Shown here one piece after another: positions 14,046-33,358 of a stretch of DNA of 64,000 nt (within the stretch, counting starts at the first letter, position 1; every line of letters starts with the position of its first letter). The notes below the pieces were generated by a model. The model made no database searches. It saw only the letters and a list, made by a program, of their open reading frames with translations, and was not told the DNA's origin. Made by a program: the position numbers and the translations under genes. Source of the stretch: a virus; IMG/VR virus record IMGVR_UViG_3300024252_000004, positions 216,770 through 280,769 of that record. The stretch is one strand, 5' to 3'.

Positions 14046-14074
14046 ATTCACCTTTCACATAGTGAGAGGTGAAT
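14046..14074 (+). promoter_or_regulatory. Hairpin sequestering the HNH ribosome site
   Basis: ATTCACCTTTCAC pairs with GTGAGAGGTGAAT over 13 bp (one T-G) around loop ATA. The 3' strand carries the GAGAGGTG ribosome site and ends directly before GTG 14075. The transcript would hide its own start, as reported for phage-borne homing endonuclease genes. Confidence 0.7.
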
Positions 14075-14737
14075 GTGCCAAAAAAGAAATTCAGTTGTAA
14101 AAACTGTAATACGGTCACAGAAAGATATAGGAGCACGGTAAGAAATCCAGACAAAGTCTTTTGTTCTAAAGAATGTAAAGGCTCTTGGCAAAAAGGTAAG
14201 ACTACCGGAAAGGATAATCCAAACTATCGCGGCGGACTACACTGCGAACAATCCTACTGCAAGTGTGGTTCTGAGAAAGACTATAGAAGTGAGCAGTGCA
14301 TGAACTGTCGTTCTATCGTTTTCAATATGGATCAAATCCTGTTGGCAATAGCGAATAGTAAGAGCTACAGTGAAGCTTCAGTCAATCTTGGAATGTCGCG
14401 AACATACCTAACGAAATATATCAAAGAGCACAAATTAGATATAGCACACTTTAGGCCGGGAAGAAATAGGGAGATTCCTAACGAAGAGTTATTCTCAAAA
14501 TCTTTTTCGAGAAGAAATAACACGGTTAAAAAAAGAATAACTAGAGATAAACTGCTTGTCAATTCCTGTTTGTGGTGTGGAATTACAGACACTTGGAATG
14601 ACAAGCCTATAACATTAGAACTTGATCACATCAATGGTGATCCTACTGATAATCGTATTGACAATTTGCGTTTACTGTGTCCTAATTGCCACAGCCAAAC
14701 TCCCACGTCGAAAGGTAAAAACAGTAGAAAAAAATAG
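14075..14737 (+). CDS. HNH homing endonuclease
   Basis: About 220 residues. An N-terminal treble-clef-like zinc finger (CKNCNTVTERY, then FCSKECKGSW) is followed by a helix-turn-helix-like region (SEASVNLGMSRTYLTKYI) and the HNH nuclease core (LELDHINGDPTDN, then RLLCPNCHSQT). GTG 14075 fits the GAGAGG site better than GTG 14069. Free-standing HNH genes spread by cutting alleles that lack them. This one lies directly upstream of a metallophosphoesterase interrupted by a bypass-like insertion, exactly where its target site would be expected. Confidence 0.92.
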   Translation: MPKKKFSCKNCNTVTERYRSTVRNPDKVFCSKECKGSWQKGKTTGKDNPNYRGGLHCEQSYCKCGSEKDYRSEQCMNCRSIVFNMDQILLAIANSKSYSEASVNLGMSRTYLTKYIKEHKLDIAHFRPGRNREIPNEELFSKSFSRRNNTVKKRITRDKLLVNSCLWCGITDTWNDKPITLELDHINGDPTDNRIDNLRLLCPNCHSQTPTSKGKNSRKK

Positions 14738-14748
14738 GAGGTGCCGCT

Positions 14749-15398
14749 ATGTCAGGTCAGAAGACTTTTTTCACTTCTGACCTCCATTAGCTGGAGGTCA
14801 CTTTTTTCATCACAATATAATTAAATATTCTAACAGACCTTATCGTGATTCGCATGGCGAGCCTGATGTGAATGCAATGAATGAGGGAATTGTTAATAAC
14901 TGGAATGAAGTAGTTGGTCCTAAAGACCGAGTATTTATCCTGGGCGATGTAGCAATGGGCGGAATGTCTAAAGCTCCTTACCTCGCAGAATACCTGCGTC
15001 GTCTTAACGGTGACAAATATTTGGTTCCTGGCAACCATGATACTTACATTCTCAATAGCGAAGAATGTATGGAAGAGCTAACCTTGCTTCCTGCCGTTTA
15101 CGAACTGAAGATTCCAGATGACACTCTTCCTAAGCGAAAGAATGGTCGTATGAAGCGTCAGACGATTGTTCTGTGTCACTACTCTATGAGAGTATGGCAC
15201 AAAAATGGCAAGGGTGCTTGGCATCTATTCGGCCACAGTCATGGCAGCATGGATGGCATCGGACTATCTTTCGATGTTGGTTTCGACGGACCATACTCTA
15301 ATCATCGCCCTATGAGTTATGAGCAGGTTCGCGACGTTATGAGTAACCGAGAAATGGCTCTACTTGATCATCACGGCGAACATACAAGCTACCATTAA
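14749..15398 (+). CDS. Calcineurin-like metallophosphoesterase, coding sequence interrupted by a 14-nt gap
   Basis: GGAGGT then ATG 14749 reads MSGQKTFFTSDLH and hits TAG at 14788-14790. The same family continues in another frame from CAC 14799 (H-FFHHNIIKYSNRPY) to the stop at 15398. Joined at His, the product is about 211 residues with DLH, GDV, GNHD and GHSHG metal motifs in order, matching the family without missing residues. Without the join the N-terminal metal ligands are lost and only an ATG at 14868 remains. Either a programmed bypass restores the gene or it is recently broken. Confidence 0.8.
14779..14801 (+). other. Candidate translational bypass element
   Basis: GACCTCCA (14779-14786) pairs perfectly with TGGAGGTC (14792-14799), loop TTAGC. 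The His codon CAT 14785-14787 is followed at once by the TAG stop, which lies in the loop; the His codon CAC at 14799-14801 begins in the last base of the stem. A hop from CAT to CAC skips 14 nt and restores the frame. T4 gene 60 also has a matched codon pair, an immediate UAG and a hairpin at take-off. Confidence 0.55.
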
Positions 15399-17552: not shown

Positions 17553-18242
17553 TTAATAAGATTTGCCATCTTTATATCTTTCGCGCCTCTTATATCTTCC
17601 CATGCCTTTGTTCTTACCTTTATAAGTATCAGTCTGAGCATGACAATTTGGACAGATTAATCTAAGATTCGATAAAGAATTGTTTTCTGAGTTACCATCG
17701 ATGTGATCTAATTCAATCGGCATTGGTAACTCATTCCATTCTAACAAATCGCACACAGAACATTTGCTTCCGTTGTGTTTTAAAAGATATCTTTTTCCAA
17801 CTACCGCAGAAAACTTTCCAGATGCTATTCTTTTCTCAAGATCAAAATCATGCTGGCAATAGTTTGAGCAATACTTTGCAGAACCTCTCTTGGTTTTTTT
17901 GCCGCAATTTACACAATCTGATGCGGGTTTACCATTTCTGGTGACGCCTACATTGTGAAATGAAGCAGAGCAGCTATGAGAACAAAATTTGGAATTAGCT
18001 TTAGCGTAGTTGGTGAATGAATTGCTGCAACCTAAACAAATATATTCTACGAGAACTTCATTAAATAAACTCCTGCATTGACCTGAACAAAATGAATGCG
18101 TAAGATTTTTTCGAATGGAACGCAAAACTGAATGCTTATTTATGCGATAAGCTTCATCGCATTGATCACACTCAAGAGTTACAATTTCTCTTGATTTGAA
18201 GTCTGATAACCACTCTCTGATGTTATCATCTGAATATTTCAT
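17553..18242 (-). CDS. HNH homing endonuclease (minus strand)
   Basis: 229 residues read from ATG at 18242 behind AAGGAAG. Several CxxC zinc pairs (LECDQCDEAY, YICLGCSNSF, CVNCGKKTKRGSAKYCS) precede an HNH core (IELDHIDGNSENNSLSNLRL, then CPNCHAQTDTYKG). It is related to the HNH genes at 14075 and 36058, which share the same final motif, but has a different zinc-finger N-terminus. It sits 13 bases from tRNA-Thr, suggesting insertion next to a tRNA gene. Confidence 0.9.
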   Translation of the reverse strand: MKYSDDNIREWLSDFKSREIVTLECDQCDEAYRINKHSVLRSIRKNLTHSFCSGQCRSLFNEVLVEYICLGCSNSFTNYAKANSKFCSHSCSASFHNVGVTRNGKPASDCVNCGKKTKRGSAKYCSNYCQHDFDLEKRIASGKFSAVVGKRYLLKHNGSKCSVCDLLEWNELPMPIELDHIDGNSENNSLSNLRLICPNCHAQTDTYKGKNKGMGRYKRRERYKDGKSY

Positions 18243-18255
18243 GTCTTCCTTTTAT

Positions 18256-18333
18256 GGCCGTCTAACTCAATTGGCTTAGAGTACCTACCTCGTAAGTAGG
18301 AAGTTTCCGGTTCGAGCCCGGAGTCGGCCTCCA
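18256..18333 (+). tRNA. tRNA-Thr(CGT), CCA encoded
   Basis: Cloverleaf: acceptor GGCCGTC/GTCGGCC with one T-T mismatch, D stem ACTC/GAGT, anticodon stem CCTAC/GTAGG with loop CTCGTAA giving CGT (reads ACG), T stem TCCGG/CCGGA, encoded CCA. Confidence 0.9.
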
Positions 18334-19555: not shown

Positions 19556-19568
19556 CCGGGGAGAAAAA
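19556..19568 (+). repeat. 13-bp repeat upstream of promoter copy 3
   Basis: CCGGGGAGAAAAA, identical to 24819-24831. Both copies lie 12-35 bases upstream of a phage promoter and are followed by TGAT and CGG, so this may be an upstream promoter element. Confidence 0.55.
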
Positions 19569-33281: not shown

Positions 33282-33358
33282 AGAGGGTTGGTGTTAGCGG
33301 CCCAACATTTTCGCCTGTGACGTGAAAGACCTGGGTTCGAATCCCAGACCCTCTACCA
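33282..33358 (+). tRNA. tRNA-His(GTG), A73, CCA encoded
   Basis: Acceptor AGAGGGT/ACCCTCT, D stem GTGT/ACAT, anticodon stem TTCGC/GTGAA with loop CTGTGAC (GTG), T stem CTGGG/CCCAG. The discriminator is A73, not the usual C73; the base before position 1 is G. A73 tRNA-His is known from alphaproteobacteria. Confidence 0.9.

Follow-up and report, generated by a model that had tools for sequence, protein, structure and literature searches.

A candidate hairpin-assisted ribosome hop at an active-site codon of phage metallophosphoesterase genes

Is a phage gene that stops directly after an active-site histidine codon, and continues in another frame a few nucleotides later, a broken gene or a gene that ribosomes read by hopping? 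The question is raised by a calcineurin-like metallophosphoesterase gene (PF00149, phrog_547) in a 64,000-nt stretch of viral DNA, here called the window, that covers positions 216770-280769 of a 395,127-base virus record. The gene opens with 13 codons ending in GAC (14779-81), CTC (14782-84) and CAT, and TAG follows at 14788-90 (Table 1). The remainder of the protein, which begins FFHHNII and contains all later catalytic motifs, runs from TTT at 14802 to TAA at 15396-98, in a frame whose earliest start codon lies at 14868. Uninterrupted relatives carry the motif SD-x-HFFHHNII without a break (L018 and L019 read SDQHFFHHNIIKY and SDTHFFHHNIIKY), so joining the two frames at the histidine restores the family motif and a phrog_547 protein with D-x-H-F-x-H spacing. 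By the same spacing the net insert is 14 nt, that is, the 11-nt gap and one landing codon. The original prediction had described this layout, a CAT and immediate TAG separated by 11 nt from a second His codon, CAC, with an unbroken motif on joining, and both the window sequence and the uninterrupted relatives bear it out.

Table 1. Features of the interrupted phosphoesterase locus, in window positions
Feature	Position	Strand	Basis or remark
HNH homing-endonuclease-like gene	14069..14737	+	phrog_10822, PF13392, PF01844; directly upstream of the phosphoesterase gene
Shine-Dalgarno GGAGGT of the phosphoesterase gene	14737..14742	+	sequence
ORF1, MSGQKTFFTSDLH then TAG	14749..14790	+	last sense codon CAT 14785-87, the putative take-off codon
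5' hairpin, perfect 10-bp stem, 10-nt loop; arms AGGTCAGAAG (14754-63) and CTTCTGACCT (14774-83)	14754..14783	+	counterpart in 11/11 interrupted genes
Gap hairpin, TGACCTCCA/TTAGC/TGGAGGTCA, perfect 9-bp stem	14778..14800	+	stop codon in loop, T6 after
Putative bypassed gap, TAGCTGGAGGT, 11 nt	14788..14798	+	sequence and family comparison
Putative landing codon CAC	14799..14801	+	family spacing and NAY rule
ORF2, rest of the metallophosphoesterase, 198 codons	14802..15398	+	PF00149, phrog_547; resume codon TTT

Two hairpins lie at the break. The 5' hairpin, overlooked in the original prediction, proved to be the conserved part of the element; the last base of its stem lies 2 nt upstream of the take-off codon, and a stem as long as its 10 bp appeared in 1 of 20,000 shuffles of ORF1. 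For the gap hairpin, the placement of the stop codon in the loop stands as first described, but the stem has 9 bp rather than 8 and ends at the second, not the first, base of CAC. The folding z-score of 14749-14830 is -3.1. The two hairpins have bases in common, and their full stems are mutually exclusive. The gap hairpin and its T6 are terminator-like as well; intrinsic termination may be a side effect at most, and it leaves the other phages described below unexplained. No further copies of the gap hairpin or of the insert were found in the 395 kb record.

From the window alone a recent inverted duplication that broke the gene was initially favored, because 13 codons are too short for a nascent-peptide signal like that of T4 gene 60 and GGAGGT directly abuts the landing CAC. 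Searches of INPHARED, IMG/VR and GTDB contigs turned up no close relative of the window phage. We recruited 80 relatives of the phosphoesterase through the part downstream of the break only, regardless of interruption. Three of them are interrupted at exactly the position seen in the window: L112 (GAC ATC TAG CGAGG ATC CAC TTT), L116 (GAC ACC CAC TGA AT TTT) and L155 (GAC ACC CAT TGA AT TTT). In all three, the codons before the break pair with a complementary stretch upstream in the N-terminal extension and form a strong hairpin. A pattern scan of IMG/VR (F-T-x-D-x-H, a stop, 2-32 nt, H-x-N-I) returned nine true cases, seven of them new (L166 is L155, and L177 is L116). With the window this makes eleven interrupted phage phosphoesterase genes, whose identity to one another has a median of 37% and a maximum of 56%. 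Interrupted copies in cultured phages were absent both from 60 evenly sampled INPHARED matches and from the best matches listed in further searches.

The eleven genes share one design. Each has an ORF1 of 13-24 codons with a start codon, and each has an ORF2 that is open to its end, with no stop or shift over ~1,900 codons in total. The stop lies directly 3' of the take-off codon in every case, although seven of the eleven are known only from a scan that demanded CAY plus a stop, so its position is independent evidence only in L112, L116, L155 and the window. The inserts measure 4, 5, 5, 6, 7, 7, 7, 8, 8, 11 and 14 nt. A hairpin of 12-18 pairs is predicted in 11/11; relative to the first base of take-off, its 3' arm ends at -1 to +2 nt, and several of the hairpins carry mismatches and bulges. 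Their z-scores range from -4.5 to -9.6, apart from that of the window, the weakest at -2.3; 66 intact genes have a mean z of -0.14, none of them reaches -16 kcal/mol, and in hairpin energy they do not overlap with the interrupted ones (Mann-Whitney p 6.5e-8). Synonymous recodings of ORF1 equaled the hairpin energy in 0-2 of 1000 trials. When arms were swapped between loci, the own partner was best in 10/11, and 0/100,000 permutations did as well. A second hairpin that folds the gap itself is present in the window and, with 5 bp recognized by eye, in L112, the two genes with the longest gaps. One intact phosphoesterase gene (L105:1420-1503) has a hairpin before D-S-H (z -5.5) without an insert, and this hairpin may be a remnant of the bypass design or a precursor to it.

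The codons at which decoding would resume follow a rule of their own. Landing codons were assigned by letting decoding resume so as to keep the family spacing D-x-H-[FYL]-x-H. For the ten genes with a His take-off codon they are CAC, CAT, CAC, TAT, TAT, TAC, AAT, AAT, AAT and GAC, which is NAY in 10/10, with the first base free (background 0.154 per case, p~1e-8). In the eleventh case, L112, take-off and landing codons are both ATC. One tRNA reads both the CAT and the CAC of the window, and across the set positions 2 and 3 are kept. This is the pattern that would be expected if peptidyl-tRNA-His (anticodon GUG) re-paired at positions 2 and 3; it is not predicted by decay, by RNA removal or by decoding of an extra codon. 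The phage itself has a tRNA-His (GUG) gene at 33282-33358 of the window, the tRNA that would make the hop, and a tRNA-His gene lies near the L165 locus too. The choice of stop codon is similarly restricted. TAG is used in seven breaks and TGA in four, but TAA in none, whereas TAA ends 63% of the long ORFs in these contigs. TAA is read by both release factors. In small gene samples from L168, L170, L171 and L175, no gene terminates with TAG, yet TAG ends the phosphoesterase ORF1. Recoding of TAG in these four was rejected as an explanation, since long ORFs there are without in-frame TAG and the frame shift persists in all but L168.

Our comparison of the window with ten further phages, through the hairpin geometry, the landing-codon rule and the intact ORF2s, argues strongly for translational bypass as originally proposed. 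We consider it very likely, on this comparative sequence evidence, that the break is a short, hairpin-assisted bypass element of the gene 60 kind that works without a long nascent peptide. The ribosome would translate 13 codons and arrive at CAT at 14785, where its A site faces UAG. While CAU occupies the P site, the ribosome would cover the 3' arm of the 5' hairpin. Peptidyl-tRNA-His would then release, the mRNA would slip by 14 nt, and the tRNA would re-pair with CAC at 14799. Decoding would restart at UUU at 14802 and give a normal phosphoesterase with D-L-H-F-F-H intact. The drive is probably supplied by the 5' hairpin, which would be opened by the ribosome, re-form behind it and pull the mRNA through, and the gap hairpin probably folds the gap away.

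Several other readings of the break need to be weighed against a hop. Each phage might carry a recent pseudogene, broken by an endonuclease cut or by a replication template switch, with the hairpins as scars. Template switching can make perfect hairpins in one step (PMC8794818), and endonucleases encoded next door would cut here. We nevertheless regard this as unlikely, given eleven ORF1s with start codons, ORF2s that have stayed open, landing codons that are NAY without exception and a stop that is never TAA. The position of the hairpin, moreover, varies by no more than a few bases among the genes, and in several of them the stem contains mismatches and bulges as if it had aged under constraint. 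No other broken gene emerged when the frames of the 395 kb record were scanned coarsely, by a procedure blind to breaks near gene starts. Inactivation of the gene by a small inverted duplication, offered with the original prediction as the alternative to bypassing, has likewise become unlikely, and a simple template-switch origin was rejected as the loop TTAGC is not templated nearby.

If the insert were excised from the mRNA and the ends rejoined, as phage RNA repair enzymes might do, a message for ordinary translation would result. Such enzymes are common in phages, and the L168 contig has a gene for a polynucleotide-kinase-like protein. In the short-gap cases, however, the hairpin lies 5' of the insert and not around it, the 4-14 nt inserts are without intron-like features, and the element has no match in Rfam. 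Neither a landing codon compatible with tRNA-His nor the avoidance of TAA would be required for excision, which we consider highly improbable. The same sequences would also serve a forward frameshift of 3-11 nt after the His codon, in which the codon before the resume point is decoded and an extra H, N, Y or D enters between D-x-H and F-x-H; +1 shifts at a stop codon are known from the release factor 2 gene. This is very unlikely in our view, as the D-x-H-[F/Y/L]-x-H spacing is constant in the intact relatives inspected and re-pairing of tRNA-His, unlike decoding, accounts for landing codons that are limited to NAY. The window is a single metagenome contig, and a second copy of this phage was not found, but an assembly or sequencing artefact is next to negligible and is refuted for the family by ten independent contigs with the same design at the same codon. 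Other routes through the window gene were tried and rejected. A -1 frameshift at U UUU UUC (14766-72) meets TGA at 14778, TAG readthrough terminates at TAA at 14818-20, and a protein begun at GTG 14868 would lack the metal-binding motif.

The bypass reading also bears on why the inserts exist. The window phosphoesterase begins just downstream of an HNH gene, whose stop ends at 14737, so that 11 bases, not 12 as first counted, separate it from the ATG at 14749. The link to homing endonucleases that this neighbor first suggested holds statistically for the set and extends across unrelated endonuclease families. Homing-endonuclease-like neighbors were found at 7/11 interrupted loci against 2/65 intact loci (Fisher p 4.9e-6, with the two groups recruited differently). 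They comprise HNH genes in the window, L112, L155 and L175 (that of L112 called from weak NUMOD3 and phrog_23051 matches and a DHIYG motif seen by eye), apparently decayed LAGLIDADG genes in L168 and L171, and a phrog_559-type enzyme in L170. Neighbor families were taken from the 25 commonest in the family table, and motif searches added no others; among the intact loci, HNH-family matches account for 2/127 neighbors. The HNH gene of L175 occupies the same place as that of the window, to which it is 53% identical. A related HNH gene (35%) also lies directly upstream of an intact phosphoesterase gene, with a one-base overlap, in the cultured Pseudomonas phage 16Q (L178, 2109-3064), which indicates that the endonuclease can occur without a bypass.

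Gene 60 of phage T4 has the endonuclease gene mobA as its neighbor, and a role in protection from cleavage has been proposed for its 50-nt insert. By analogy, it is plausible that the inserts described here protect the cut site from the neighboring endonuclease. Homing endonucleases probably aim at conserved active-site DNA; the insert would spoil the cut site, and the hop would hide the insert from the protein. Such targeting probably explains why one active-site codon is interrupted in so many phages. A second HNH gene of the same broad family lies at 17553-18242 (-) of the window, beside a tRNA-Thr gene (18256-18333). The L168 contig is rich in homing endonucleases, and an AAA ATPase gene there (L168:7870-10283), as judged by eye, is apparently split by endonuclease genes of the GIY-YIG and NUMOD types.

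In a phylogeny of 77 phosphoesterases, the interrupted genes lie scattered and require 8 changes, at least 7 of them forced by well-supported branches; L112, for instance, is the sister of intact L108, with 67% identity. Hairpin and gap sequences differ from phage to phage, so repeated evolution fits better than the mobile cassette of the original prediction, taken as a sequence that travels. The signature is rare. A structure-based scan of 7771 stop contexts in AT-rich loci gave 13 sites, of which nine are phosphoesterase breaks and a tenth is the L175 break in another frame. A looser scan led to a polynucleotide-kinase-like gene (PF13671, HAD_PNKP) at L168:1539-2447, which reads MKSIKNINKAPGKIIVLQGPP, TAA, CCA and then ASGKSTWARE. 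Here a 10-bp hairpin stands against CCG-TAA-CCA inside the Walker A motif, with TAA as the stop, so that the stop-hop design extends to a second gene family. We lean toward the view that both families belong to a general class of short, hairpin-driven phage ribosome hops, repeatedly evolved, that would hide inserts spoiling homing-endonuclease targets in enzyme active-site codons, with a two-base-pair landing and no long nascent-peptide signal.

The closest known counterpart is T4 gene 60, which shares a stop that immediately follows take-off, re-pairing of the codon at the landing site, a 5' stem-loop upstream of take-off together with a stem-loop that includes the take-off codon, an adjoining HNH-type homing endonuclease and an insert in a conserved enzyme gene (PMC3014915, PMC5009743). 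Its 5' stem-loop has likewise been proposed to re-form behind the ribosome and pull the mRNA through. In gene 60, bypassing requires a nascent-peptide signal located ~30 aa from the P site (PMC11194080, PMC5009743), and a Shine-Dalgarno-like GAG stands 6 nt before landing. In contrast, take-off here follows 13-24 codons, against 46 in T4, too short for a nascent-peptide signal like that of T4, and the GGAGGT of the window abuts its landing CAC. The inserts are 4-14 nt rather than 50, landing keeps two of three bases, the stop is TAG or TGA, and the element is found in many phages and in a different gene. Because the phosphoesterase element lacks two gene 60 features, the nascent peptide and the spaced Shine-Dalgarno sequence, we class it as a variant of gene 60-type bypassing. 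The different gene, the absence of a long nascent peptide and the many separate occurrences on the tree agree with the independence from T4 that was originally suggested.

Other systems resemble the element in part. The byp elements of Magnusiomyces capitatus mitochondria are also many short inserts hidden by translation, several with imperfectly matched landing codons (PMC5009743), but they are mitochondrial and apparently independent of mRNA context, whereas a hairpin stands at a fixed site every time in the phage genes. Stop-hops and tRNA-limited hops in E. coli use matched codons around a stop, 9 nt giving one residue, and a natural in-frame stop-hop was not known to a review of the field (PMC5009743). 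The CAT-TAG-CAT of L168 and the CCG-TAA-CCA of its kinase gene have this form; the E. coli examples are synthetic constructs, while those in the phage are natural and have a hairpin attached. A bypass proposed for the terminase of Streptomyces phage Hau3 has a similarly short gap in a phage gene, but it is associated with a UUA codon and has a Shine-Dalgarno sequence ahead of the gap, and a stop-plus-hairpin design is absent from the review's account (PMC5009743). The tape-measure gene of mycobacteriophage Corndog has an HNH insertion upstream and a protein without a normal start; RT-PCR shows no splicing, and bypass was suggested (PMC4351075). Its gene and layout differ from those described here. 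No bypass family of the present kind turned up in the literature covered, most subscription journals and preprints lying outside that scope.

In the same literature, efficient programmed bypassing outside mitochondria rests essentially on T4 gene 60, and the rules of bypassing have thus been inseparable from the oddities of that gene. Eleven natural examples, with hairpins and gaps that vary in sequence and length, would make bypassing a comparative problem. Their common features (a 5' hairpin at take-off, avoidance of TAA as the stop, re-pairing through positions 2 and 3 at landing) are testable in simple reporters. The idea drawn from mobA, that bypass inserts shield genes from homing endonucleases, gains independent instances in which the neighboring enzyme is of the HNH, the LAGLIDADG or another family, and our data suggest that some phage 'pseudogenes' are functional.

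A different repeated element was seen in the course of this analysis. About 35 copies of CGGGGAGA occur, at G000 143-162 kb (loci L075 and L076) and in the window at 19557 (+), 24820 (+) and 50722 (-). They lie mostly on the + strand of one region, most are followed by AAA, and many are preceded by strong hairpins of unrelated sequence. This element is probably a phage promoter or a 5'-end element of late genes.
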